A DNA stretch of 34,574 bases, taken from assembly GCA_017521195.1 (NCBI GenBank), contig JAFXGP010000030.1, positions 1 through 34,574 on the forward strand, given 5' to 3'. Below are positions 3,317-34,574 of this stretch, one piece after another (positions within the stretch are counted from its first letter, which is position 1; each line of letters begins with the position of its first letter). This DNA is from Lachnospiraceae bacterium (GTDB lineage: Bacteria > Bacillota > Clostridia > Lachnospirales > Lachnospiraceae). A program made the position numbers and the translations under genes. The notes under the pieces were generated by a model. That model searched no databases. It saw only the letters and a program-made list of their open reading frames with translations, and had not been told where the DNA came from.

Positions 3317-3408
3317 AGAAAAGGCAATCGCCACAGAGTGGTTGACCAAGTTAGAATAAGTAAAACCTTCCAAGACTCGGGCAAAGTACAGGGAAGGTTT
3401 TTACTATT
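3317..3408 (+). ncRNA. Candidate antitoxin RNA of a type I toxin–antitoxin locus
   Basis: A transcript of about 90 nucleotides is predicted from the promoter at 3283–3310 to the U-run after the hairpin at 3361–3403. It converges on the toxin mRNA from the other strand. The two would overlap across the terminator by roughly 45–50 nucleotides and be fully complementary there. Its 5' part (3323–3347) carries a sequence that recurs in the same sense in the toxin mRNA leader (3529–3555 on the minus strand): both begin GGCAATCG and end GTGGTTGACC. The arrangement of two convergent RNAs with a shared bidirectional terminator recalls the Fst/par and RCd-type loci of Firmicutes. Expression is inferred, not shown. 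Confidence 0.55.
3361..3403. terminator. Bidirectional terminator shared by toxin mRNA and antitoxin RNA
   Basis: The arms AAAACCTTCC (3362–3371) and GGAAGGTTTT (3392–3401) form a 10-bp stem. A T-run follows on the + strand, and the minus strand has a matching T-run inside the other arm. It lies between the end of the antitoxin RNA and the end of the toxin gene (stop at 3409), so it can serve both. Confidence 0.75.
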
Positions 3409-3498
3409 TTAGTGACAAATCAAATAAATGAATGTCAGCAGTGCTAAGAGAAACATACCGAAAGACATTAAGTCTTTAAAATCGAAATTATTCTTCAT
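3409..3498 (-). CDS. Small hydrophobic type I toxin-like peptide
   Basis: This 29-residue peptide begins MKNNFDFKDLMSFGM and continues with a hydrophobic helix ending LICH. It has a short polar N-terminus and one membrane segment (about residues 10–27). This is the layout of the putative holin-like toxins of Firmicutes type I toxin–antitoxin systems (TxpA/BsrG/Fst class), which damage the membrane when overproduced. The start is fixed by the Shine-Dalgarno GGAGGTG, 7 bases before the ATG at 3498. A longer in-frame reading upstream passes through the promoter and leader and is not credible. The Shine-Dalgarno sits in a perfect hairpin. The family assignment is by pattern, and toxicity is inferred. 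Confidence 0.65.
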   Translation of the reverse strand: MKNNFDFKDLMSFGMFLLALLTFIYLICH

Positions 3499-3505
3499 AA
3501 GCATC

Positions 3506-3531
3506 ACCTCCATTCTATGTAGAATAGAGGT
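3506..3531 (-). promoter_or_regulatory. Hairpin masking the toxin Shine-Dalgarno
   Basis: In the minus-strand transcript the 26 bases from 3531 down to 3506 are self-complementary end to end. ACCTC pairs with GAGGT and ATTCTA with TAGAAT, with one G·U pair and a minimal loop. The 3' arm contains the GGAGGT used by the toxin start at 3498. Translation should therefore be closed unless the structure opens, a common safety feature of type I toxin mRNAs. Confidence 0.7.
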
Positions 3532-3556
3532 CAACCACCCTGTATCACGATTGCCA

Positions 3557-3608
3557 GTAGCAAAATTGCTACTTAAACGATTATAACATATAGGAAACAC
3601 GAACACAA
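3557..3608 (-). promoter_or_regulatory. Toxin mRNA promoter and 5' stem-loop
   Basis: Reading the minus strand, TTGTGT (3608–3603), a 17-base spacer and TATAAT (3585–3580) make a good sigma-A promoter with a start near 3573. The predicted first bases of the mRNA form a perfect stem-loop, AGTAGCAA pairing with TTGCTACT (3574–3557). Such a 5' structure is typical of stable toxin mRNAs. Confidence 0.7.
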
Positions 3609-22443: not shown

Positions 22444-23376
22444 ATGAAAAAATATGTATTTGGTGTAGATGTAGGCGGAACAACCATTAAAATGGGATTC
22501 TTTACGGTAGAAGGCGAATTGCTTGAGAAATGGGAAATTCCTACCAGAAGAGAAAATAATTCAGAAAATGTTCTTCCGGATATCGCAGCAGCTATTGACA
22601 ATAAATTGGCTGAAAAAGGTATTGCGAAAGAAGAAGTTTCCGGTGTTGGATTTGGAGTACCGGGACCGGTTACCAAAGAAGGTGTTATTCAGATGAATGC
22701 CAACCTTGGTTGGAGAAACAAACATGTAGCTAAGGAATTGGGAGAATTGACAGGACTTCCATGTATGGGTGGAAATGATGTAAAAACAGCAGGTCTTGGA
22801 GAAATGTGGAAAGGCGGAGCTGCAGAATATGATAATGCAGTATTTATCACATTAGGAACCGGCGTTGCAGCAGCAATTATTGTAGAAGGTAAAGTTATCT
22901 TAGGAGCAATGGGAGCTGCGGGAGAAATCGGACACATCAAAGTGGAAATGGAAGAAACAGTTGCCTGTGGTTGCGGCGGTGTAGGTTGTGCTGAGCAGTA
23001 TGCATCTGCAACAGGTATTGTAAAAATGGCTAATAAAAAGTTAGCAGAATGTGATACACCATCTGTATTAAGAGATGCGGAAGTTACTTCCAAAGCAGTA
23101 TTTGATGCATATAAAGCAGGAGATGCTCTCGCTACAGAAGTAGTGGAAAAATTTGGTCATTATTTAGGATACTCCCTGGCAGCAACAGCCGCAGTGGTAG
23201 ATCCGGAAGCATTTATTGTTGGCGGAGGTGTATCCAAAGCAGGAGATGCCTTAATAGAAGTAATTCAGAAATATTACAAACAGTATGTATGGCCGGGATG
23301 CCGTGAGAAGAAATTTGTTCTTGCAAAATTGGGCAATGATGCAGGTATTTACGGTGCTGCAAGTTATGTGTTATAA
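22444..23376 (+). CDS. glcK: ROK family glucokinase
   Basis: This 310-residue sugar kinase of the ROK family probably phosphorylates glucose to glucose-6-phosphate with ATP. The phosphate-binding motif DVGGTTIKMG is at residues 9–18. The zinc site is complete: His164 in EIGHIKV and the CGCGGVGC motif at 175–182, followed by AEQ. The ATP-binding GTGVAAAII and the late VDPEAFIVGGGVSKAG are in place. It stands alone. Its stop codon is only 12 bases from the left end of the mobile element, which inserted just behind it. Confidence 0.94.
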   Translation: MKKYVFGVDVGGTTIKMGFFTVEGELLEKWEIPTRRENNSENVLPDIAAAIDNKLAEKGIAKEEVSGVGFGVPGPVTKEGVIQMNANLGWRNKHVAKELGELTGLPCMGGNDVKTAGLGEMWKGGAAEYDNAVFITLGTGVAAAIIVEGKVILGAMGAAGEIGHIKVEMEETVACGCGGVGCAEQYASATGIVKMANKKLAECDTPSVLRDAEVTSKAVFDAYKAGDALATEVVEKFGHYLGYSLAATAAVVDPEAFIVGGGVSKAGDALIEVIQKYYKQYVWPGCREKKFVLAKLGNDAGIYGAASYVL

Positions 23377-23388
23377 TTACATAGGTGA

Positions 23389-23420
23389 GAAAAAGGGGCT
23401 GTTGCAACACAATGTCATTT
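23389..23420 (+). repeat. Left terminal inverted repeat
   Basis: GAAAAAGGGGCTG followed by a less conserved part and AATGTCATT. It pairs in inverted orientation with 25467–25497; the two outer blocks are conserved and the middle differs. Confidence 0.7.
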
Positions 23421-23442
23421 AGTTAAAGCAAAATTTGTTAAG

Positions 23443-23474
23443 TTAAGGAGTAAATCTTAGGATTTGCTCCTTAA
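23443..23474. terminator. Hairpin near the left end of the element
   Basis: TTAAGGAGTAAATC and GATTTGCTCCTTAA pair over 14 bases (one mismatch) around TTAG, followed by AAACATTTT. It may terminate incoming transcription from glcK. Confidence 0.55.
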
Positions 23475-23574
23475 AAACATTTTGGGAATAAATTTTCCAT
23501 TAAGTTAAGTAAATTAGAAAAATAAAAAATTTAGAAAAATAGTAGATTTGTTTTGATTATGGGGTATAATATAT

Positions 23575-23745
23575 ATAAAATGATGTGTTTAGTTTAGGCG
23601 TGGCAATAACAGAAACAGAGAGAACACAACAGAGAGTAGAAACGATTTAGAGAGATTATTTTTATTGCAGTAAACAGAGAGAACAGAATTTTTAATAGAG
23701 ACATTTTAGAGTAGAGAAAAAAGAGAGAATAGAAAAACTACGCAC
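23575..23745 (+). other. Purine-rich leader with recurrent AGAGAGA blocks
   Basis: No ORF is supported here. The stretch repeats AGAGAGA/ACAGAGAGAA blocks at irregular spacing and follows a TATAAT at 23565–23570. GGCAATAA near 23599 and TTATTGC near 23660 could pair. It reads like a long untranslated leader of the original transposase gene; its function is unknown. Confidence 0.4.
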
Positions 23746-23796
23746 ACAAGACCGATATTCCCTGCAATTAGCAGGCTATTTTGTCTTGTTTTTTTA
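23746..23796 (+). terminator. Composite hairpin with T-run just upstream of the chimeric ORF
   Basis: ACAAGAC (23746–23752) pairs with GTCTTGT (23783–23789), enclosing an inner stem CCTGC/GCAGG, and is followed by seven T residues. Insertion sequences often carry such a structure to block read-through into the transposase. Confidence 0.6.
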
Positions 23797-23834
23797 TGCA
23801 CATCAGTAACTACTGTAATGAAAAAGAGGTTCTA

Positions 23835-24644
23835 ATGATGAAAATTATAAATACTACTCCTAATATGTTAAAACATCAGATTCAAGATGCAATTGCTAAA
23901 GCGATTGAAGTTTACAGAAAAGATTATCCAAATGAAAAATTCTGCTTTTCACGCAATCGTGTTCTGACATTTGAAAAAATGGTCAATCTTCTGCTTTCCA
24001 TGCAAGGTGGCAGTCTGAACAAGGAATTATATGATGCAGGAATTGATGTTACGGCATCCGCATTCGTACAACAGAGAAACAAATTATCTTGGACTATATT
24101 TGAAGATGTGTTTGAAAATTTTAATGCAGAATGTAATGATGTAAAAAAGTACAAAAACTATAGAGTATCAATTGCTATTAGTAACGAAAATTTGTTAGTT
24201 ACAAATGGTATTGACGATGATTTGGAACAGTATTTTGCTTTCGGTAATGTAGAAATGATAATTGCGGATAATTTTGATGAATTATGTAAGGATGATATCT
24301 ATCAGATTATGTGTTCGTGTGTGGAAGCAGAGTATGAACATGTTCTTCAAGGAACTACTAATACGCAAATTACTGCATGGTGGGATAAAGCGGTTGATAT
24401 CATTCCTATAAATTGTGGGAAAGGAAATGCTGTAAATGCAGTTTTGCAATATTATGGTTTTACAAAAGATGAAGCTATTGCATTTGGAGATGGAAAAAAT
24501 GATATTGAAATGTTGGAAGCAGTAGGCACAGGAGTGGCTATGGGAAATGCAAAAGATGAAGTAAAGTCAAAAGCAAATAAAATATGTAAATCAGTAGAAG
24601 AAGATGGTGTCTATTGTTATTGTTTAGAAAATAATCTTATATAA
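23835..24644 (+). CDS. Chimeric ORF: transposase N-terminus fused to HAD phosphatase C-terminus
   Basis: The 269-residue product joins two unrelated parts in frame. Residues 1 to about 112 look like the N-terminal domain of an IS4-type transposase: TPNMLKHQIQDAI, FCFSRNRVLTFEKMVNLLLS, GGSLNKEL, TASAFVQQRNKLS and KKYKNYRV, just before the point where the first catalytic Asp (VDGSD-like) would come. From about 118 on it is the cap end and C-terminal core of a Cof-type HAD-IIB phosphatase, with CGKGNAVNAVL near 194 and the metal motif AFGDGKNDIEM at 216–226. The HAD nucleophile motif (DxDGT) is absent, so neither enzyme activity is expected. GAGG stands 5 and 8 bases before ATGs at 23835 and 23838; the longer upstream frame enters the hairpin. 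Confidence 0.75.
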   Translation: MMKIINTTPNMLKHQIQDAIAKAIEVYRKDYPNEKFCFSRNRVLTFEKMVNLLLSMQGGSLNKELYDAGIDVTASAFVQQRNKLSWTIFEDVFENFNAECNDVKKYKNYRVSIAISNENLLVTNGIDDDLEQYFAFGNVEMIIADNFDELCKDDIYQIMCSCVEAEYEHVLQGTTNTQITAWWDKAVDIIPINCGKGNAVNAVLQYYGFTKDEAIAFGDGKNDIEMLEAVGTGVAMGNAKDEVKSKANKICKSVEEDGVYCYCLENNLI

Positions 24645-24710
24645 GGTTTAGAAATTCCAAGTTATCGAGCACTTGGGCATGAAAGGAAATTAAATTTTGT
24701 GGAGGCACAA

Positions 24711-25334
24711 ATGGATAAAAACAAGATATGGCTTGATTTAATAATAGAATTACAAAGTCTTGCACAAGCAGGATTAACCTATGGGAAAGATATTTATGAT
24801 AAAGAGCGATACGAGCGTATACGTGAAATTTCAGCAGAAATGATGTCTAATATTGCAGATGTTCCACTTGAAAAAGTTAAAGGATTATTCTGTAATGAAA
24901 TTGGTTATCAAACTCCAAAGATTGATACACGTGCCGCAATATTCAAAGATAATAAAATTCTTCTTGTCCATGAGAATAACGGAAAATGGTCACTTCCTGG
25001 TGGTTGGTGTGATGTAAACATTTCAGTTTCAGAAAATACAATCAAGGAAGTAAAAGAAGAATCTGGATTAGATGTTGTTACAAAAAGTGTAATTGCAGTT
25101 CAAGACAGAGCAAAACATAATTTACCAGTATATGCATATGGGGTATGTAAAATATTTATGCTTTGTTCAGTTGTCGGTGGGGAATTTGTGGAAAATATTG
25201 AAACTACAGGTTTTGACTATTTTGCAGAAGGGGATATTCCTGAACTCGCCACAGAAAAGAATAATGAAGAACAGATTAAATTGTGCTTTGAAGCATATCA
25301 TTCAATGGATAAATGGAAAACAGTTTTTGACTAA
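24711..25334 (+). CDS. Nudix hydrolase with N-terminal accessory domain (ADP-ribose pyrophosphatase-like)
   Basis: This 207-residue protein has an N-terminal helical segment (residues 1–65, IIELQSLAQAGLTYGKDIYD) characteristic of a Nudix subgroup often annotated as ADP-ribose pyrophosphatase-like. A Nudix domain follows from about residue 70. The box reads SLPGGWCDVNISVSEN...KEVKEESGL. The metal-binding Glu pair is kept, but the Glu expected six residues after the Gly is Ile104 and the Arg of REU is Lys112, so activity may be altered. The ATG at 24711 follows GGAGG. It lies inside the IS-derived element, behind the HAD fragment, as captured cargo. Confidence 0.88.
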   Translation: MDKNKIWLDLIIELQSLAQAGLTYGKDIYDKERYERIREISAEMMSNIADVPLEKVKGLFCNEIGYQTPKIDTRAAIFKDNKILLVHENNGKWSLPGGWCDVNISVSENTIKEVKEESGLDVVTKSVIAVQDRAKHNLPVYAYGVCKIFMLCSVVGGEFVENIETTGFDYFAEGDIPELATEKNNEEQIKLCFEAYHSMDKWKTVFD

Positions 25335-25360
25335 CACATTGAGTTTTGCAACACTTGAAA

Positions 25361-25410
25361 TTTTCTATTTGAGTTCGGCAATTTCCAACTTGTCGAACTC
25401 AAATAGAAAA
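25361..25410. repeat. Perfect 17-bp inverted repeat
   Basis: TTTTCTATTTGAGTTCG (25361–25377) and its reverse complement (25394–25410) enclose 16 bases. It lies between the Nudix gene and the terminator at 25411 and could fold in RNA or be a recombination scar. Confidence 0.7.
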
Positions 25411-25452
25411 AAATCCCGCCTATTTTGAAAAAGTGGACGGGATTTCTTTTTG
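25411..25452. terminator. Bidirectional terminator inside the right end of the element
   Basis: AAATCCCG and CGGGATTT (25411–25418, 25438–25445), extended by CC/GG, are followed by CTTTTTG on the + strand and by a T-run on the minus strand. It can stop the Nudix transcript and the convergent DHH-gene transcript. Confidence 0.8.
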
Positions 25453-25466
25453 TAATTTCTTATCTT

Positions 25467-25497
25467 AATGACATTGGGTAATTGGCAGCCCTTTTTC
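25467..25497 (-). repeat. Right terminal inverted repeat
   Basis: Reverse complement reads GAAAAAGGGCTG, a variable part and CAATGTCATT, mirroring the left end at 23389–23420. It ends 15 bases before the stop of the DHH gene. Confidence 0.7.
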
Positions 25498-25511: not shown

Positions 25512-26489
25512 TTAAAATGTTATATTATTCTCATCCATATATCGACATAGAAGAGTGTTAATAATGGAAAAAATGTTTTGTTGTCCATATTTTTCATGTA
25601 ATTTATCTTTGATGATCCGACCGCCGGCTTTATTTACATGGCCTCCGCCACTGCCGATTCCGTCACATATGTACTCTGCGATGGTATTCGCAGGAAGATT
25701 AGGGTGACAGGATCTTAGTGAAATCTGATAAGAGATATCATTTTCTGTATAGGCAAAACTTAACAGGACTAAATCTACCTGAATGATAAAGTCTCCTATG
25801 ATACCAAGAACAGATTGGTCACATTTTAATACATCAACGATGGCAAATCTTTTATCAATGTCAAAGTAATGATTATGTAATGCATCGGTGGAAATCATGA
25901 ATTCTGCCAGTGACATATTTGATTTCGTTAATTGTTCAAACAAAGGCTGTTTATGATAAAGCTGATTTTTCATTGTCAGGTCATTATGATTATACAAATC
26001 TGCAAAGCATGCTGTATCTGTGTATAAACCATATAGTAATGCAACAACCAGTTCAGGATATTCATTGACCGGGAAATGTTCATCCAACAGTAAGTTCCAA
26101 ATGATAGTGGAGCAGCTTTGGTAGCTGCTGTCAATGAAACAGTTATCTGTGATATCCACTACCGATATGTGATGGTCAATGATCATGATATTATCGGCCT
26201 CAAATTTTTCGACATTACCTTGGGCATACTGACAATCCACAAGCAACAGTAATTCGGGCTTGAAGATGTTATGTGTATATTCAAGGTTAATATTACACTT
26301 ATTAAGCATTAATTTTAAATTGCTTTTTTCAATCATCTGTGGGCCACCGTATACCATGCGGGCATTTATAGTATGACTTTTCAGATAAGAATAGATGCCA
26401 AATGCGGAAGCTATAGTATCGGGATCAGGATTGTTATGGCATTGGATACAGATGTTTTGATATTGTAATAATGATTGTAAAAATCCCAT
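25512..26489 (-). CDS. DHH family phosphoesterase (NrnA/RecJ-like)
   Basis: This 325-residue protein has the DHH superfamily motifs. HNNPDPDTIASA at 18–29 carries the DxD metal ligands, VDCQYAQG follows near 84, IIDHHIS with the DHH is at 104–110 and the DHHA1 substrate motif GSGGGHVNKAGG is at 279–290. Relatives include the NrnA oligoribonuclease/pAp phosphatase and cyclic dinucleotide phosphodiesterases. The substrate cannot be decided from sequence, but a soluble nano-RNase or pAp phosphatase is likely. No strong ribosome binding site precedes the ATG. The sortase gene lies 72 bases upstream on the same strand, so the two may be cotranscribed. Confidence 0.85.
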   Translation of the reverse strand: MGFLQSLLQYQNICIQCHNNPDPDTIASAFGIYSYLKSHTINARMVYGGPQMIEKSNLKLMLNKCNINLEYTHNIFKPELLLLVDCQYAQGNVEKFEADNIMIIDHHISVVDITDNCFIDSSYQSCSTIIWNLLLDEHFPVNEYPELVVALLYGLYTDTACFADLYNHNDLTMKNQLYHKQPLFEQLTKSNMSLAEFMISTDALHNHYFDIDKRFAIVDVLKCDQSVLGIIGDFIIQVDLVLLSFAYTENDISYQISLRSCHPNLPANTIAEYICDGIGSGGGHVNKAGGRIIKDKLHEKYGQQNIFSIINTLLCRYMDENNITF

Positions 26490-27590: not shown

Positions 27591-29306
27591 ATGTTAGATG
27601 AAAAAAAGCTGCTTCACAAAGAGAACATAGAACAGATAAATATATTTCAAGAAGACCGTGTAGAGAATGTATATGCCTATGCCATGAGTCAGCAATTTCA
27701 GGAAAATGAGAAGCTGCAGAAGAGCAAATTCAATTCCAAAGACAGCAAGCAGATGCTGGCAGTTAAGGAAGCCATGAAGCAGATTACGGTCAAAATGCAG
27801 GAGACCATTCCGCAGAACGATAAGGAAGCGTTAAGGGGAGAATTTACGGTTCTGACAGAAGCCTATGCCGGCCTGATACGTGCCTGTGAGGAATATCTGG
27901 CAGGACATCCCCATCCACTCACCATTGCAGGAAAAGCCAGAAAGCGCCTTGTAAATGGGACCTTAGCTATGGCGCAAAAAGAAGCAGCAGGATTATCCGG
28001 TGCACTGTTACAGTTAAAACCCTATTTCAGAAGTGGGGAACCGTTGCTTTGGGGTAATGTATTAGGGATTATCCGCGGGGTATCTTTTGATCTGGATGAT
28101 AACATTACAGTCAGCAGGGAAGGTGCCGCTACCAGTGAACTGAAAGTATTAAGGACCAAAGATGATAAGACCTATTTTTATAAAGAGGATGAAAAATTAA
28201 CCACACCAAAGGCAGCTATAGCGGAAGAATACAAAAATCTAAAAAAAGCAGAGGATAAAGATATTCTTGAAAATATACTGCAGTTGTTGGATTATCGTAT
28301 CGAAAGAAAACAGGATAGGTATGGTAACGTGGATACCAAATATTATCATGGCAAAATAGATGATCTTTTGAGTATTCGGGAAGGAGAGTATGAACCATAT
28401 ATTTTAGCAGATTTGAAACAAAGAGATACGAAAAGTGTACGCTCAAAGATAGAAGAATATATTAAAAAGCTGAATATTCCTGCTTTGAATTTGGATATGC
28501 ATCATAAAAGAACCTGGCAGCTGTTTCAAGAAATTATGCCCAAATACTGGAGACTGCGTACCCGATTGGGTGTAAGCATGGAGGCAGGAATAGGACTTGA
28601 ACAATCCGTATCCCAGAGAAACGTAGCAGCCAGCCGTATGGCAGCAGTGTTTGGCATGCCGTCTCTGGTGGTAGCCACCAACAAAGCAACCCTAAAGCAA
28701 AAAGGGAAAAAATCAGAAAATGGTATTGTAATGTCTCAAGCAAAAGGAAAATCCTATGGCGATGTTTGGGAAATGGCACGACAGAAGAAAGAGAAAATTG
28801 TCTATACGCCGGAAGCTATGAGGCAGATTACCTGTCTGCAGCTTTTTGACAGTATCTGCGGACAGATAGACCGTCATTGGAATAATTTCTTTGTTACTTA
28901 TAAAGAAGAAAACGGAAAAATGGTAATTACCGGTTTTCAGGGAATTGATAATGATCTATCCTTTGGGGATTTGCAGTATAGAAATATACGGGCAGAAAAT
29001 ATGAATCGTCTGCCGGCATTTGAAAATGAGGGTTCTTTTTGCAGTATGCCACTTTTGGATGCCAAAATGGTAGAAACCATGCGGGTATTAAAAAAGACAG
29101 ATTTGGAATATTATCTGGGGGATTTGCTGGAATCTAAATATATTGATGCCATGTGGAACCGCTTAGAGAATATGCTAAAAGTGATTGATAAATCTCTTCA
29201 TAAATCAGAAGACCATAAGCCTTATGCTGTATTGATGGAAGATAAGGATTGGAGAAGTGATTTTGTAAAATATAATTTTAACCGTATGTATAAGGGATAT
29301 TTATAA
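27591..29306 (+). CDS. Unrecognised 571-aa protein with a kinase-like active-site pattern
   Basis: I cannot name a family. No signal peptide or membrane segment is seen. The N-terminal 150 residues look helical. Around 180–200, SELKVLRTKDDKTYFYK resembles the lysine-bearing strands of a kinase N-lobe (Lys198). RNVAASRMAAVFGMPSLVV (343–361) resembles the helix plus short strand that follows in HipA, FAM20 and PI3/4-kinase-like folds. CGQIDRHWNNFFV (423–435) looks like a catalytic loop (Asp427, Asn432) and GIDNDLSFG (451–459) like the metal-binding DxG element. A protein or lipid kinase-like or AMPylase-like activity is therefore possible. GGAGGTG precedes the ATG. It is divergent from the sortase gene, with a direct-repeat promoter between them. 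Confidence 0.7.
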   Translation: MLDEKKLLHKENIEQINIFQEDRVENVYAYAMSQQFQENEKLQKSKFNSKDSKQMLAVKEAMKQITVKMQETIPQNDKEALRGEFTVLTEAYAGLIRACEEYLAGHPHPLTIAGKARKRLVNGTLAMAQKEAAGLSGALLQLKPYFRSGEPLLWGNVLGIIRGVSFDLDDNITVSREGAATSELKVLRTKDDKTYFYKEDEKLTTPKAAIAEEYKNLKKAEDKDILENILQLLDYRIERKQDRYGNVDTKYYHGKIDDLLSIREGEYEPYILADLKQRDTKSVRSKIEEYIKKLNIPALNLDMHHKRTWQLFQEIMPKYWRLRTRLGVSMEAGIGLEQSVSQRNVAASRMAAVFGMPSLVVATNKATLKQKGKKSENGIVMSQAKGKSYGDVWEMARQKKEKIVYTPEAMRQITCLQLFDSICGQIDRHWNNFFVTYKEENGKMVITGFQGIDNDLSFGDLQYRNIRAENMNRLPAFENEGSFCSMPLLDAKMVETMRVLKKTDLEYYLGDLLESKYIDAMWNRLENMLKVIDKSLHKSEDHKPYAVLMEDKDWRSDFVKYNFNRMYKGYL

Positions 29307-29346
29307 TAGATTTTTACATAAGAAATGAATAATTGTTTGAAAATAG

Positions 29347-29376
29347 AAGAGTCTTGTGTATCGGCAAGCCTCTTTT
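29347..29376 (+). terminator. Terminator after the kinase-like gene
   Basis: AAGAGTCTTG and CAAGCCTCTT pair with one mismatch around an 8-base loop, then TTTAAT. Confidence 0.7.
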
Positions 29377-29459
29377 TAATTATGTCAAAAAAGGAAAGGA
29401 AAAGCATTTTTCACGGTTCCAATTCATAGAATAGCATAAATGAACTTTTGGAGGCCTTA

Positions 29460-29783
29460 TTGAAGACGTTTCAGCAGCCATTGACAAAGCATGAAGAAGA
29501 TTTTTATCTGGCAAGGCTTCAAGAGGAAGATGAAGAGAAGAAAACGAAGGCAAAACAGATTTTAATAGAAAGAAATCTTCGCCTGGTAGCCCATATTGCT
29601 AAGAAATACCAGGGGACAGATGTGGAAATGGAGGATTTGATTTCCATAGGGACAATAGGATTGATCAAGGCAATCATGTCCTATGATTCCTTGAAAAAAT
29701 CAAAGCTGGGGACGTATGCTGCAAGGTGTATTGAGAATGCTATTCTATCACCAATGCGACATTGGGAATGGAAAATATATTAA
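29460..29783 (+). pseudogene. sigK: Sigma-K gene fragment, cut after region 2
   Basis: The 107-residue product starts MKTFQQPLT and runs through ERNLRLVAHIAKKYQGTD, EDLISIGTIGLIKAI and LGTYAARCIENAIL, which is region 1.2–2.4 of the sporulation factor sigma-K. It then leaves the family with SPMRHWEWKIY and stops. Sigma-K is normally about 230 residues, so regions 3 and 4 are missing and no trace of them is visible downstream in any frame. The start is a TTG, 5 bases after TGGAGG. In Bacillus and Clostridioides sigK is interrupted in a comparable region by the excisable skin element. Here the break may be a similar junction, or simply decay. Confidence 0.75.
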
Positions 29784-30355
29784 CAGTGTATAATTCTGCC
29801 AAATGGAAGGTATATTGCCAAATTTCAGAGAATAATTACATCATGTACAGGTACGAAGACGGCAATGTGAGGTATGCACCTTTATATATCACAAAGTTCA
29901 GATTAATTGCTCCACGCAAAATTATGGAATCTCAGAGAATCAATCAGCAATTTTCTTGTTATGAAGATATAGAAACAATTCCTGACAGAATGCGTTGGTG
30001 TCGTCATCAAAAAGGCTTGATGCAGATAGAGGTTGCAGATTTAATCGGTGTTTCCAGAAAGTCATATATAAATATTGAGAATGGTAATCTTATACGCTAT
30101 GAGAAAAAAATAGTGGACAAGTTGGCAGAATTATATCAAATTCCGGTTAAAGACTTATTGGATGATTACAGTTACTTTTTATACTGTGGACAAGGTAAAG
30201 TATTACGTGGTTATCGTGAGAAGAATAATTTAGAAAGAAATGAGCTTGCCGATATGGTGGGAGCAAGAACGCATCATATAACTATGTGGGAAGAAGAAGA
30301 AATAGAGATTAGCAAAAAAGTATGGGAGAGATGCTTTAAGGATATTTTGAAATAA
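29768..30355 (+). CDS. Protein with two helix-turn-helix (XRE) domains
   Basis: The frame gives about 195 residues. The first 70 are unrecognised. An XRE-type HTH follows at about 73–130 (RMRWCRHQKGLMQIEVADLI, SRKSYINIENG), and then a second, degenerate HTH-like unit (VLRGYREKNNLERNELADMV, ITMWEEEE). A DNA-binding regulator is likely. The start is uncertain: the ATG at 29768 overlaps the end of the sigma-K fragment by 16 bases and has no good ribosome binding site. A TTG at 29762 and an ATG at 29923 are alternatives. It is the first gene beyond the sigma-K break and may be the edge of an inserted element. Confidence 0.6.
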   Translation: MENILTVYNSAKWKVYCQISENNYIMYRYEDGNVRYAPLYITKFRLIAPRKIMESQRINQQFSCYEDIETIPDRMRWCRHQKGLMQIEVADLIGVSRKSYINIENGNLIRYEKKIVDKLAELYQIPVKDLLDDYSYFLYCGQGKVLRGYREKNNLERNELADMVGARTHHITMWEEEEIEISKKVWERCFKDILK

Positions 30356-30378
30356 AAAGATAATGAATATTAAAACTG

Positions 30379-30412
30379 GCTTCTGTATTTTTTATGCAGA
30401 GGCTATTTTTAA
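30379..30412 (+). terminator. Terminator after the HTH gene
   Basis: GCTTCTGTAT and ATGCAGAGGC pair over 10 bp (two G·U) with a T-rich loop, followed by TATTTTT. Confidence 0.8.
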
Positions 30413-30514
30413 TTTATAGAATCATGTTACAATGGAAGTAGAAATTCAGGTTGTAGAACAGTTAGGTAAATCTAGTTTATTTTTTAATCAATATGAAAGA
30501 ACGGTACGAAAAAT

Positions 30515-31141
30515 ATGAATTATTATTTAGTAGATTACGAAAATATCCATAATGATCTAGATAATCTTATTAACAATACATCTAATGGAGATAGCATTGT
30601 ATTATTCTATTCGGAGACATGTAAAAACATTTCTCTGGATGTTATTTCAAATTTTACAAGTAGAAATCTTAAAATAGATTGTTTTAAGGTAATAACCGGT
30701 ACTAAGAATGCATTAGATTTCCAATTAGCATCATATTTAGGTTATTTAGTAGGTGAAAACAAAAAGGCTGCTAATTATTACATAGTTAGCAATGATAAGG
30801 GATTTGATTGTTTATGTGAATACTGGGAAAGCATTGGGGTATCTGTAGTCAGAATATGTGCACAAACATCAGTTGTTAAGCCTGTTCTTAAACAGAACCC
30901 ACCTAAGACTAAGAAAGAGGTTAAAAAGAACAATAAAGTAAATAATGATATAACCTTAGAAGAAGTTAAGGAAATTGTAAAAGAAAACTCTGAAGCAGAG
31001 TTTATTGTAGATGTTTTGAATAATAGCAAAGAAAAAACAGAAGTTCATAATAAGATTTCTAAGCATTATAAGGATAGTAAGAAAACAGGAATTTTGTATA
31101 AGAAATTGAAGCCTTTGTTTAAAGAAAAGAAAATTAAATAA
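30515..31141 (+). CDS. PIN/NYN-like domain protein
   Basis: This 208-residue protein starts MNYYLVDYENIHNDLDNL, the pattern of the PIN-like/NYN nuclease fold, where the DYE acidic residues bind metal. KNALDFQLASYLGYL and YYIVSNDKGFD supply the further conserved acidic positions (Asp in LDFQ, Asp in SNDKGFD). A basic, low-complexity linker follows (KPVLKQNPPKTKKEVKKNNK). The C-terminal 60 residues are lysine-rich and helical and could bind nucleic acid. A metal-dependent RNase is the likely activity; target unknown. The ribosome binding site is weak. Confidence 0.75.
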   Translation: MNYYLVDYENIHNDLDNLINNTSNGDSIVLFYSETCKNISLDVISNFTSRNLKIDCFKVITGTKNALDFQLASYLGYLVGENKKAANYYIVSNDKGFDCLCEYWESIGVSVVRICAQTSVVKPVLKQNPPKTKKEVKKNNKVNNDITLEEVKEIVKENSEAEFIVDVLNNSKEKTEVHNKISKHYKDSKKTGILYKKLKPLFKEKKIK

Positions 31142-31311
31142 AAAAGTAGGGCTTATTAAGGTTTATATATTCCTTGCTGGAAATCAAGATTCTAAAACAA
31201 ATGAAATGGTGTTTTTTGTTTTGTCTTATTTTATGGGATAGTTAGTTAGGACAGATACTGTACCCAAAAAGATAGGGTAATAATAAAAATAAAGTATGAG
31301 GAAATAAATAT

Positions 31312-32052
31312 ATGATTATATATTTTACCGGGACAGGAAATAGCAGATATATAGCAGAAAAGATTGCTAAGAAAACCGCAGATAGATTAATAAATGTTAA
31401 TGATAGGATTAAACGAAATGATAATTCAACGATTAAAACAGATGGAACACTAATAATTGTCATGCCTACTTATGCTTGGAGAATTCCTATTATTGTAAGA
31501 GACTGGATAATAAAAACAGAATTTGCGAATGTAAACCGAGCATGGTTTGTTATGAATTGTGGGAGTGAAATTGGCAATGCAGCTAAATATAACATGGAAT
31601 TATGTGATATGAAAAAATTTACTTACATGGGAACTGCCCAAGTAGTTATGCCGGAAAATTATATTGCAATGTTTGACGCTCCGGATAAAGAAGAAGCAAA
31701 ACAAATAATTTCTAAAGCAGAACCGGTGATAGATAATATTATTGGCCTGATAAAAGAGAAAAAGAAATTTCCTGATTTAAAAAATAATTTGTATGACCGA
31801 TTTATGAGTGGACCTGTGAATAAGATTTTTTATTCACTATTTGTAAAGGCAGATGCTTTTAAAGTAGATGATAAATGTATTGGTTGCGGGAAGTGTGAAC
31901 AGATTTGTTCACTAAATAATATTACTGTTCAAGAGAATAAACCTGTATGGGGAAAATCATGTACTCATTGTATGGCTTGTATCTGTAACTGCCCTACCGA
32001 AGCAATTGAATATGGAAAGAAAAGCATTGGAAAACCAAGATATCATATATAA
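31312..32052 (+). CDS. EFR1-type flavodoxin–ferredoxin protein
   Basis: This 246-residue redox protein has an N-terminal flavodoxin-like domain, with the FMN phosphate loop YFTGTGNSRYIAEKIA at 4–19 and MPTYAWRIP near 54. The C-terminal part carries two 4Fe-4S clusters, CIGCGKCEQIC and CTHCMACICNCP. This architecture is the EFR1 family, common in anaerobic gut Firmicutes and presumed to transfer electrons to unknown partners. GAGGAA stands about 8 bases before the ATG. It stands alone upstream of the small lipoprotein and membrane genes. Confidence 0.92.
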   Translation: MIIYFTGTGNSRYIAEKIAKKTADRLINVNDRIKRNDNSTIKTDGTLIIVMPTYAWRIPIIVRDWIIKTEFANVNRAWFVMNCGSEIGNAAKYNMELCDMKKFTYMGTAQVVMPENYIAMFDAPDKEEAKQIISKAEPVIDNIIGLIKEKKKFPDLKNNLYDRFMSGPVNKIFYSLFVKADAFKVDDKCIGCGKCEQICSLNNITVQENKPVWGKSCTHCMACICNCPTEAIEYGKKSIGKPRYHI

Positions 32053-32118
32053 GATGAATAGTATGAGATATAAGTCTTATTAGAAAGGTGAAAATTTGAA
32101 TTTTGGGAGGTAATGACC

Positions 32119-32457
32119 ATGAAGAAAATACTAATACTGTTGCTATGCCTTTTACTTACGGTCTCAATCATGGGGTGTGGTACACAGTCAATAAAGCCGA
32201 TTGACACAATTGAAGGAAATATGAAAACATACAGTGAAATGTCAGACGGTACATGGCAGTGCGATGGACATATCTACAAATACAGGTTGGAAATCAGTGG
32301 ACGACTGAGTACTGCCGTTAAAGACAGCACATACATTTATTTAAGCAACATAGAAGATATTACCTTCGAACAAGCTTGGAAAGCATCTGGGCTTAGCAGT
32401 AATATGGATGATTACTTTGATATTGACGAAGCAGTATTGGTTGAATTACCAGACTGA
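32119..32457 (+). CDS. Small lipoprotein of unknown function
   Basis: This 112-residue protein has a lipoprotein signal peptide (MKKILILLLCLLLTVSIMGC, Cys20). The mature part of about 90 residues includes TWQCDGHIYKYRLEISGRL and ends with an acidic stretch. I do not recognise the family. The ATG at 32119 stands 8 bases after GGGAGG; an ATG at 32113 is too close to it. The sequence ATTTGAATTT lies just before the ribosome binding site, as in several following genes. Confidence 0.75.
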   Translation: MKKILILLLCLLLTVSIMGCGTQSIKPIDTIEGNMKTYSEMSDGTWQCDGHIYKYRLEISGRLSTAVKDSTYIYLSNIEDITFEQAWKASGLSSNMDDYFDIDEAVLVELPD

Positions 32458-32482
32458 CAACTTTCAGGCTTCTGTTGTGTCT

Positions 32483-32513
32483 GAAAGCAAGTGTTTATTT
32501 GAATTTGACGAAT
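32483..32513 (+). repeat. Intergenic repeat, copy A
   Basis: Holds the exact 15-mer ATTTGAATTTGACGA (32497–32511). About 30 bases around it (GAAAGCA...GTGT...ATTTGAATTTGACGAAT) match copy B at 34384–34414 almost completely. It is preceded by a hairpin, CTTTCAG/CTGAAAG (32461–32487). It lies before the gene at 32537. Confidence 0.75.
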
Positions 32514-32536
32514 GAAAAATGGAGGAGATGTTGATT

Positions 32537-32767
32537 ATGGAAAACGCACCTAATATTATTTTGTTTTGGTATTTCATAATAGCACTCTTTGTGCTTATGA
32601 TTGCTTTGATGATTAAGGCGATTATTTTAATTAAAAAGAGTAAATGTAAAGGACAAAGCTCTAATAAGATGCTACCAGTAGGGAAAACTTGCTTGGTTTT
32701 AAGTATAATATGTGCCATTCCTATAATTTTAGTAGTTGGATATATTCTGTATCTTTACATAGGGTAA
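32537..32767 (+). CDS. Small membrane protein, two helices
   Basis: This 76-residue protein has two hydrophobic segments (about residues 6–32 and 52–75) joined by a basic loop KKSKCKGQSSNKM. Family unknown. The ATG at 32537 is 9 bases after GGAGGAG. In-frame ATGs at 32519 and 32528 overlap or abut that site and are less likely. Confidence 0.7.
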   Translation: MENAPNIILFWYFIIALFVLMIALMIKAIILIKKSKCKGQSSNKMLPVGKTCLVLSIICAIPIILVVGYILYLYIG

Positions 32768-32803
32768 AAATTATTAATAGGATTTTGTTTTTTAAAACGA
32801 TAA

Positions 32804-32818
32804 ATTTGAATTTGACGA
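32804..32818 (+). repeat. Intergenic repeat, copy C (15-mer)
   Basis: Exact ATTTGAATTTGACGA, 14 bases before the ATG at 32832 and leading directly into the GAGGTGAG ribosome binding region. Confidence 0.75.
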
Positions 32819-32831
32819 GGTGAGATAAGGT

Positions 32832-33497
32832 ATGAAAATAGAGAACAACATCCTAAAGCATTATCTCCAAAATGTGTATTTCATTACAGGCACAGCATAT
32901 GCAGGAAAGTCAACCACAGTAAAAATGCTTGCTGATAGATATGATATGGTTTTCTGCGGAGAAAACTATCACAGCATGGTATCGGATATGGTCGCAACTC
33001 CCGATGTGCAACCTGATATTTGTTTTATTAAAAGCCTTACTGATTGGAAAGATTTTGTCACTCGTTCTCCCGAAGAATATGAACGATGGATTTATAGTAC
33101 AGGAAAAGAAACTGCAGAGTTTGAGGTTGCCGAACTCATTTCCATATCAAAGGACAAAAAAGTGATTGTTGATACCAATATTCCCCTTGACATACTGAAA
33201 GAAATATCCGACTACAATCACGTTGCTGTTATGCTTTCGCCTCAGTCTATGAGTGTCGGACGGTTCTTTGACCGAAGTGACCCCGAAAAACAGTTTCTCC
33301 TCAGTGTTATTGAGAGTTGCGAAGACCCCGAAGCCGTTATGGAAAACTATAGACGAGGACTTGCACGCATTAACAGCAAAAAACACTATGATGAATATGC
33401 TAACAGTGGCTTTTTCACGATTGTACGGCAAGATAATAACATAGATACAAGAGAAGATGTTTGCGATGCCATCGCAAAGCACTTCGGATTGGTTTAA
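32832..33497 (+). CDS. P-loop NTPase / kinase-like protein
   Basis: This 221-residue protein has a Walker A loop in YFITGTAYAGKSTTVKML (GTAYAGKST at 20–28) and a likely Walker B strand KKVIVDTNIPL near 109. It resembles small nucleoside- or shikimate-kinase-like ATPases of unassigned function. The rest includes an R-rich segment, SVGRFFDRSDPEKQFLL, that could form a lid. Codon choice (CCC, CTC, CGA) differs from the chromosomal genes upstream and suggests a different origin. Ribosome binding region GAGGTGAG. It is followed by a membrane protein gene after about 50 bases. Confidence 0.75.
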   Translation: MKIENNILKHYLQNVYFITGTAYAGKSTTVKMLADRYDMVFCGENYHSMVSDMVATPDVQPDICFIKSLTDWKDFVTRSPEEYERWIYSTGKETAEFEVAELISISKDKKVIVDTNIPLDILKEISDYNHVAVMLSPQSMSVGRFFDRSDPEKQFLLSVIESCEDPEAVMENYRRGLARINSKKHYDEYANSGFFTIVRQDNNIDTREDVCDAIAKHFGLV

Positions 33498-33546
33498 CAA
33501 ATTCCAATTTGTAGAGAACAGAAACTTTGAATTTTATGGAGGTATT

Positions 33547-33876
33547 ATGGACAAGAAAAAGTATTGGATAATCCGATTATTCTTTGTGCTTTTTACAATG
33601 TCCGTATCTGTTGCAATACTTCCTTGTGGAATAATAAATGTTCATGGCTTATTTGGTGAGGTAACCACATATGTAGTGGTCGAAGATAAAGAACAAGAAA
33701 TTGTCAGTATTAAAGACGTAGACAATATAAAAGTCCAAACTGTAAAAGGCATAAATATTCTCAATATTTGGTTTGAACTTCTGATAATAGTTGTATGCAT
33801 TAGCTTTTGTGCTAATTTAATCAAACTTCCACGAGGAGATACCATAGTTACATTAAAGGTTCGTATGGACGATTAA
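33547..33876 (+). CDS. Membrane protein of unknown function
   Basis: This 109-residue protein has an N-terminal hydrophobic helix (about residues 7–30), an exposed acidic part (VVVEDKEQEIVSIKDVDNIK) and a second helix (78–98). It ends in a short charged tail. Family unknown. The ATG at 33547 follows GGAGG by 5 bases. A longer frame starting at 33457 overlaps the previous gene and is not supported. TTTGAATTTT lies just upstream (33526–33535). Confidence 0.7.
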   Translation: MDKKKYWIIRLFFVLFTMSVSVAILPCGIINVHGLFGEVTTYVVVEDKEQEIVSIKDVDNIKVQTVKGINILNIWFELLIIVVCISFCANLIKLPRGDTIVTLKVRMDD

Positions 33877-33879
33877 AGT

Positions 33880-33907
33880 CTTTCTGCAAATAAAAAGCAG
33901 AAAGGAG
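33880..33907 (+). promoter_or_regulatory. Hairpin reaching into the next ribosome binding site
   Basis: CTTTCTGC and GCAGAAAG form a perfect 8-bp stem (33880–33887, 33897–33904). The right arm overlaps the AAAGGAG of the DUF6483 gene. It may reduce its translation or act as a weak terminator (no T-run). Confidence 0.5.
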
Positions 33908-33914
33908 AATGATT

Positions 33915-34298
33915 GTGTTTGAGCAAGATTATGTAATGAGGCTCATTAAAGAGATGGTGCGAGCTATTTTAAAACTATTATTCAACATCAATACGGAGAC
34001 TCCAACAGTAGAATTGTTGGAAAACAAAGAAGAAAAGGAAACATTGGAAAATCTATTAGACATGATAGACAATGGGAAAATCAATGAAGCAGAAAATCGA
34101 TTATATGATTTGACCAGTGATACAGATGTGAATAGTTTAGAAATCGCACTATTATTTTATTCATACTTGAATGACAAAACAGACGATTTTTTAGAAGCAA
34201 ATGACTTCAGCAGAGATGAAATCAAATTAGGTCTTGAAAATGTTGTTGATAGCTTTGGTCTAAGCAGTATTGCAAAAATGTTTTTTACAGACTTTTAA
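33915..34298 (+). CDS. DUF6483 family protein
   Basis: This 127-residue, mostly helical protein starts MFEQDYVMRLIKEMVRAILKLLFN, which I recognise as the DUF6483 family of Firmicutes. Their function is unknown. It has the character of a small TPR-like or adaptor protein (acidic, helical, DMIDNGKINEAENRLYDL). The chosen start is a GTG at 33915, 8 bases after AAGGAG. An in-frame ATG at 33909 is nearly inside the ribosome binding site. Confidence 0.8.
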   Translation: MFEQDYVMRLIKEMVRAILKLLFNINTETPTVELLENKEEKETLENLLDMIDNGKINEAENRLYDLTSDTDVNSLEIALLFYSYLNDKTDDFLEANDFSRDEIKLGLENVVDSFGLSSIAKMFFTDF

Positions 34299-34300
34299 TG

Positions 34301-34342
34301 GAATTGTCTGGTTGTCAGTCGAGTAAGATGACCAGACAATTC
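34301..34342. terminator. Perfect 12-bp hairpin after the DUF6483 gene
   Basis: GAATTGTCTGGT and ACCAGACAATTC (34301–34312, 34331–34342) enclose an 18-base loop. There is no clear T-run, so it is a candidate terminator or structural element. Confidence 0.5.
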
Positions 34343-34383
34343 AAATTTACACATAATACAAAATTTCAGCTTTTCTAAGAGTT

Positions 34384-34414
34384 GAAAGCAGTGTATTATT
34401 TGAATTTGACGAAT
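34384..34414 (+). repeat. Intergenic repeat, copy B
   Basis: Contains the 15-mer ATTTGAATTTGACGA (34398–34412) within about 30 bases nearly identical to copy A. Like A, it follows a hairpin-prone TTTCA/TGAAA pair. It lies in the 239-base gap between the DUF6483 gene and the last, partial gene. Otherwise the gap holds only a possible TAATAT promoter element at 34489. Confidence 0.75.
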
Positions 34415-34537
34415 TGATAAATTCATATTTTTATCCGACAAGGTTGTCTAATTATTGAAATATGGCATTTTTCTCGTTTTGTGTCGTGTAATATATGGAC
34501 AACAAAGAGTATTCTGCAAGTGAAAGGAGGAACCAAG

Positions 34538-34574
34538 ATGGAACAAAAAAAGATTGGAAACTTTTTGAAAAATC
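34538..34574 (+). CDS. Partial gene, probably an XRE-type regulator
   Basis: Only the first 12 codons are in the window: MEQKKIGNFLKN. This resembles the start of XRE-family HTH regulators (M.Q.KIGKFI...). AAAGGAGG stands 8 bases before the ATG. The rest lies beyond the window end, so the call is tentative. Confidence 0.5.
   Translation, partial: MEQKKIGNFLKN

Follow-up and report, generated by a model that had tools for sequence, protein, structure and literature searches.

Some members of the IS4 family insert with strong specificity, and a modular cargo aspect had, as of 2008, not been seen outside IS231, according to the portions of the family survey drawn on here (PMC2266710). Integrons are described as extremely rare in Firmicutes, for which the excerpted text of PMC9024848 gives one complete integron (Limnochorda) and a few CALIN. 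Here, we analyzed a window of 34,574 bases, which is the entire contig C11 of a draft Lachnospiraceae genome (G000; 2.5 Mb, 133 contigs, 81.7% complete), and show that positions 23410-25476 are a damaged cargo transposon of the IS4 lineage, of the cargo-bearing IS or MIC kind that is already known. Our preferred reading, to which we give a probability of roughly 70%, is that this copy is a defective member of a Lachnospiraceae IS4-family transposon lineage, that its cargo comes from a pool of cassettes bounded by short sites, and that it has suffered a deletion running from transposase to cargo. All data used are metagenome-assembled genomes (MAGs); the DNA search with the element covered 41 genomes, and the protein search with a relative's transposase covered 397 genomes of the family.

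The element sits between glcK (22444-23376) and a minus-strand gene (25512-26489) that is DHH-like by reading of the sequence, and its features are collected in the table together with those of a gene array further along the window. Its 16-bp terminal inverted repeats (TIRs), CAATGTCATTTAGTTA and CAATGTCATTAAGATA, are of IS4 type and identical at 14 of 16 positions. A sequence-only reading of this DNA had placed an IS leader and a transposase N-terminus between matching terminal repeats; the enclosure stands, but the limits given, 23389-25497, do not, as the outer repeat consists of the arms of the target terminator. We class the outer AAAAAGGGGCTG and CAGCCCTTTTT as target, and not as element, because copies with the same TIRs elsewhere are flanked by quite different hairpin arms. 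The IS4 transposase model NF033592 aligns to the window's transposase piece at positions 18-92 only, under its cut-off. As the same reading had proposed, a truncated HAD gene and an intact Nudix gene with its own ribosome binding site follow: the HAD piece spans positions 90-252 of the 255 in Pfam Hydrolase_3, without the region in which a full-length relative of 305 aa has FDIDGT, and the complete Nudix gene, preceded by GTGGAGG, encodes an unusual Nudix box that is common to all five homologues aligned. A search of plasmids found no match, and viral contigs gave none for the exact half-site or for the transposase patterns. Rfam at gathering threshold, across six sources, returned an FMN riboswitch and tRNA only, with zero families at the element. 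Elsewhere in the window, a 253-nt stretch (3333-3585), judged non-coding from its place between matches and also without an Rfam family at gathering, has, among the matches listed, two counterparts of about 85% identity in G244:C21 (L291 8902-9149 and 12004-12251).

Table. Features of the damaged element and of the gene array in the window.
Feature	Position	Strand	Remark
Left arm of the intrinsic terminator behind glcK (AAAAAGGGGC) and 10-bp TGTTGCAACA	23390..23409	.	Target, not element
Left terminal inverted repeat CAATGTCATTTAGTTA	23410..23425	+	Identical end type in G005, G169, G040 and L067-L070 copies
IS leader with hairpin	23426..23837	+	86% identity with the copies in G005
Transposase N-terminus, residues 1-111; catalytic domain absent	23838..24170	+	86% identity to full-length relative
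HAD-IIB (Cof-like) phosphatase, C-terminal part	24168..24644	+	In-frame fusion; first motif missing
Cassette-type junction site, 8 nt past HAD stop codon	24653..24674	+	Second-best matrix score in window; 0 expected
Intact Nudix hydrolase gene, passenger	24711..25334	+	Protein matches Nudix_N and NUDIX
Cassette-type junction site past Nudix gene	25381..25402	+	Within 24-bp-arm palindrome 25361-25410; 0.1 expected per window
Right-end terminator-like hairpin with T-run	25407..25452	+	Conserved at other right ends
Right terminal inverted repeat CAATGTCATTAAGATA	25461..25476	-	Identical to left TIR at 14 of 16 positions
Right flank GGTAATTGGCAGCCCTTTTTC, terminator-like arm	25477..25497	.	Does not repeat left duplication
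Type-1 junction site in gene array	32459..32513	+	0.2 expected
Junction half-site before 32832-33497	32793..32823	+	0 expected
Type-2 junction site	33500..33545	+	Near-identical site in L068 cargo, different species
Array gene	33547..33876	+	First 227 bases (33547-33773) in stretch 96% identical to G276, other genus, with different left neighbour
Type-1 junction site	34360..34414	+	160 bases from contig end

In our DNA search, the congeneric genome G005 yielded two copies at 86% identity, matching the left 0.7 kb of the element (best E-value 2.3e-260), and G040, of a different family, yielded one at 73%. At the protein level, 34 of 397 family genomes match the transposase at E<=1e-50; among these matches, three places show 68-94% identity, one is the window remnant, and the remainder show 32-43%. 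Six of the seven named loci matched by the relative's transposase are labelled as Lachnospiraceae MAGs, and those used came from water buffalo, water deer and goat gut. We compared ten copies of the close clade (window, G000:C3, G005:C39, G005:C38, G169:C43, L069, G317:C42, G040:C9, L070 and G271:C9), and an additional left end lies near a contig end in G006:C93. Lone left-end hairpins in G001-G003 were considered as IS copies and rejected. The leader hairpin of the IS left end (GGAGTAAATCTTAGGATTTGCTCC type) also occurs without IS ends within the same genus, at L165 2188-2236, L167 3127-3198 and L168 1563-1615.

Examination of G005:C39, which has an intact transposase and ends similar to those of the window copy, places the clade in the IS4 family. 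Its transposase scores 161.8 bits against NF033592 (NCBIfam IS4; cut-off 115) and has the YREK motif in the form Y-2-R-3-E-6-K, with DDE spacings of 75 and 133 that match those in the part of PMC2266710 used, and the TIRs, set against Table 1 of that survey, have the form of the IS4 subgroup. The domain that carries these catalytic residues is absent from the window copy, which has IS ends enclosing passengers without a working transposase, as an MIC does, and which lacks the target duplication of its own that is usual in MICs. The ends fit a single IS, and the description of the locus as a non-autonomous, passenger-carrying IS derivative with an intact Nudix gene was borne out. An autonomous IS with the same ends was to be looked for in related genomes; in addition to G005:C39, the source genome itself contains an intact-looking, cargo-free IS4 copy of 1,649 bp (G000:C40, L163 1-1649) with both TIRs and the same end type as the window copy. 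The transposase of this copy is 39% identical, its left flank is terminator-like, and it ends exactly at the first base of its contig. Since G005:C39, with its intact transposase, and the cargo-free candidate G000:C40 share the end type, mobilization of the window element in trans by a related transposase is conceivable. The transposase of G005:C38 (L072 9935-10582) contains an in-frame internal deletion that starts near the break point in the window copy, and selection may possibly retain the N-terminal domain.

Target duplications are exact and 10-11 bp long, matching the ~10 bp of IS4, in all five relatives in which both ends are present. Of the target sites rebuilt from these five, three contain an intrinsic terminator by scan (the control scans were positive for 111 of 3000 random and 262 of 3000 intergenic 70-mers); the fourth, in G005:C38, is an AT-rich palindrome with a T-run, which is a terminator by eye and fails the GC rule of the scan, and the fifth, in G317:C42, lies inside a MATE-type coding gene. 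The left arms of the one-ended copies L070, G271:C9 and G040:C9, and of the C40 relative, are terminator-like by eye. Of 30 loci scanned for distant IS4 relatives, 12 have a duplication pair, about four of these in terminators by eye. By targeting terminators, a transposon would enter a harmless site while bringing a new terminator along.

The flanks of the window copy carry no target duplication (left TGTTGCAACA, right GGTAATTGGC). Instead, its left flank, AAAAAGGGGC-TGTTGCAACA, pairs with the flank of a right end found elsewhere in this genome, on contig C3, where TGTTGCAACA recurs, and the empty site behind glcK that the sequence-only reading had called for can be rebuilt, although only by using this flank from the other contig. 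One explanation, which we place only just short of even odds, is that the window left end and the C3 right end are the outer ends of a single transposon, 12 kb or more in length and inserted into the terminator behind glcK, which would hold the element, the genes from DHH to the array, and the cassettes, with the window right end keeping an old donor flank. The TGTTGCAACA duplication on both flanks and the complementary terminator arms point to this, as do the end of contig C11 and the start of C3, both among cassette-type genes, the presence in G003 of glcK and relatives of the C3 HAD and DTD genes 5 kb apart on one contig, and the DNA match to the window DHH gene in one of six congeneric genomes; on the other hand, a second left end was not found in 25.5-34.6 kb, the DNA between C11 and C3 falls in a contig gap, the sequence downstream of glcK differs in every relative examined, and the window's own two flanks, when joined, score as a terminator too. 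Alternatively, and with a lesser though still appreciable chance, the unmatched flanks arose by recombination between two copies or are those of a chimeric contig, in keeping with the fragmented and incomplete state of this draft MAG and with the presence of two partial copies in this genome. Between the two right ends, the longest run of identical bases is 13, so an assembly jump there is unlikely, but a jump within the left half of the element would be possible.

The sites past the HAD and Nudix genes (24653 and 25381) resemble sites located 3′ of cargo genes in other species, and the site at 33500 in the window array. A matrix built from six sites outside the window ranked 33500, 24653 and 25381 as its top three, with 0, 0 and 0.1 expected per window, in a scan that is only partly independent, because the window was itself one of the places in which the motif first came to notice. 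The array at 29300-34574, which is cut by the contig end, encodes PIN, flavodoxin-ferredoxin and DUF6483 proteins along with proteins assigned to no family, with cassette-type sites between them, and arrays of unrelated same-strand genes with such sites are present in the window (30-34.6 kb), in G004:C109 and in G005:C92. A strict type-1 pattern was found in 4 of 397 family genomes and its reversed form in 0 of 397, and a type-1 sequence model at E<=0.001 was found in 34 of 397 (34 of 334 genera), the latter figure being one without a reversed control. By this model, G415:C5 contains four type-1 sites, between different genes. The looser pattern TTTGAATTTGACGA with one mismatch was discarded, as control matches occurred in many of 17 genomes. 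Of the 10 distinct type-1 sites in the fetched loci, nine have an upstream ORF, on the same strand in 9/9 and with its stop codon 1-65 nt before the site, and the downstream ORF is on the same strand in 8/9, three of these eight beginning inside the site and possibly not being genes. RNAalifold on 54 type-1 sites found no structure. When the hairpin arms were paired by hand (28 distinct arm pairs from 52 of the 54 sites), 18 double-change cells were counted, compared to 6.3 on average and 14 at most after shuffling; for this count the slide control failed and the shuffle control alone stands, and some excess can arise through relatedness alone.

An all-against-all comparison of 31 loci, leaving out pairs of IS copies, demonstrated that, among the matches listed, related cassettes lie beside different neighbours. 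For example, window 33517-33773 is 96.1% identical to G276 over 257 bp, with its 5′ break in the site and its 3′ break in the gene, and for a nucleotidyltransferase gene shared by G004 and G005 (87.7%) the left half of the site differs between the two genomes, the break lying within the site. The window Nudix gene is 78.8% identical to G271:C68 over 622 bp, a match that begins shortly upstream of the start codon and extends to the stop; the G271 gene lies near a type-1 site and, by eye, has site-like sequence on both sides. A toxin-antitoxin-like pair is 87.7% identical between G004 and G415, and part of it is present in G000:C111 (91.4% to G415). Among the matches listed, the similarity of four shared cassettes stops at a site or next to one on one or both sides; other shared stretches do not behave in this way, such as a 1,020-bp stretch common to G004:C115 and G005:C92 (98.1%) with an end that is not at a type-1 site. 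These cargo genes are likely to be gene cassettes.

A search for the integron integrase (TIGR02249) found it over cut-off in 0 of 17 genomes. The better matches were set aside as XerD-like genes in one shared neighbourhood (G000:C16, G004:C91, G005:C119 and G006:C77), and others as recombinases with a transposase-like neighbour that is IS91-like by eye (G053). In G053, a tyrosine recombinase adjoins a second transposase-like gene (L286 331-2362 and L287 1751-3758), on contigs that also bear type-1 sites. The attC boxes of integrons have the consensus RYYYAAC / GTTRRRY; compared to this, GTTAGAY is visible by eye in several type-2 sites and in IS backbones, and is absent from type-1 sites. Rather short of an even chance, in our view, is a Lachnospiraceae integron-like cassette system with its own hairpin sites, a recombinase other than a recognized integron integrase, and the terminator-targeting IS4 lineage as its mobile platform. 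The platform would provide an attI-like half-site and a promoter upstream of the cassettes and a terminator downstream, and the window would be a damaged platform plus a cassette array, possibly one composite transposon. We hold this slightly lower because several homologue loci are without sites (L027-L032 and L047-L050, for Nudix and HAD, have zero good ones, and L050 a weak one with 0.11 expected) and because of the shared stretches that do not break at sites. Junction sites are likewise absent from G005:C39 and G317:C42, among the copies with whole cargo genes, and G005:C38 has a weak one only. It is unlikely that the junction repeats are leader or mRNA hairpins conserved for expression, with homologous or illegitimate recombination having shuffled the genes: start codons do closely follow the 3′ half of the sites, which runs into GGAGG, the top-strand hairpin is the stronger in 15 of 16 folds, and the integrase result also fits, but sites occur past the last cargo gene beside the IS right end, with no gene after them (L068 13175, L069 12774 and window 25381), and the break inside the site of the G004/G005 gene speaks against it.

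Whole cargo genes are visible in eight of the ten close copies (L070 and G271:C9 run off their contigs), and all eight sets are different: the HAD piece and Nudix; SnoaL (cut) and HTH; a 475-aa protein; rhomboid, TraX and PBECR4; three small genes; a TraX-like gene 28% identical to the other TraX; and a 478-aa and a 465-aa protein. Where relatives retain a full transposase, the cargo follows that gene, separated from its stop codon by a non-coding stretch of about 0.6 kb that is conserved in the seven copies aligned (one partial), contains ACTAGT repeats and has, by eye, a promoter directly 5′ of the cargo. The window copy looks like a deletion derivative in which the transposase N-terminus is fused in frame to a HAD gene without its first motif, and the downstream position of the cargo in these relatives makes it simplest to suppose a deletion that started in the transposase and ended within the first cargo gene. 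A one-off capture, in which recombination put a neighbouring chromosomal HAD-Nudix pair in place of the catalytic domain, as the sequence-only reading had it, would suit the in-frame fusion at residue 111 and the missing C-terminus but is improbable given this cargo position, the junction sites past both genes, and the failure to find a HAD-Nudix source pair side by side among the matches listed.

The defective-lineage reading that we prefer would work as follows. Fuller members, as represented by the copies compared, consist of the left end, the leader, a DDE transposase, the conserved non-coding region, variable cargo, and a right end that brings a terminator-like hairpin of its own; in the few copies that show it, they leave duplications of 10-11 bp and lie mostly within intrinsic terminators. 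Several copies would draw their cargo from a cassette pool that is also present in chromosomal arrays, the short conserved boundary sites being putative recombination sites at which a recombinase would insert or exchange cassettes. The window copy would have lost its catalytic domain through a deletion running from about codon 111 of the transposase into the first cargo gene, and would be left as a non-autonomous element with one intact Nudix passenger that would move only with transposase supplied in trans. Such a cassette system, with the IS4 element as vehicle, would help to explain the trade in single genes among gut Lachnospiraceae (for instance acetyltransferases, a toxin-antitoxin-like pair and Nudix), and the sites offer a handle for finding the recombinase.

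Among the papers listed in our literature searches, there was no report of these sites, or of IS4 elements with cassettes in terminators. The cassette system may be new, and the IS4 cargo element would be a variant of the cargo-bearing IS or MIC. Compared to integrons and CALIN, as described in the parts of PMC9024848 and PMC8618304 used, these arrays have in common tandem same-strand genes, a putative hairpin site after each gene, and assemblies that break there. They differ in that no integron integrase was found over cut-off in 17 genomes and that the attC boxes are, by eye, not consistently in the sites. The sites here favour a top-strand fold, whereas attC folds from the bottom strand (PMC8618304, in the extract used). 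With the IS4 subgroup, as covered by the same portions of PMC2266710, the clade shares the YREK motif and DDE spacing, duplications of 10-13 bp and ends that fit -AATR--------WTW, but its members are 3.3-4.3 kb long with cargo, in contrast to 1.4-1.65 kb for the subgroup. With IS231 and MIC231 (PMC2266710 and PMC3913671, in the passages available), it shares IS ends around passengers, and transposase-less forms of IS231/MIC231 move in trans. The ends differ, however, and the passengers of IS231 lie between the left end and the transposase, whereas those of this clade lie between the transposase and the right end, which sets it apart from the IS231 subgroup, and are bounded by cassette-type sites.
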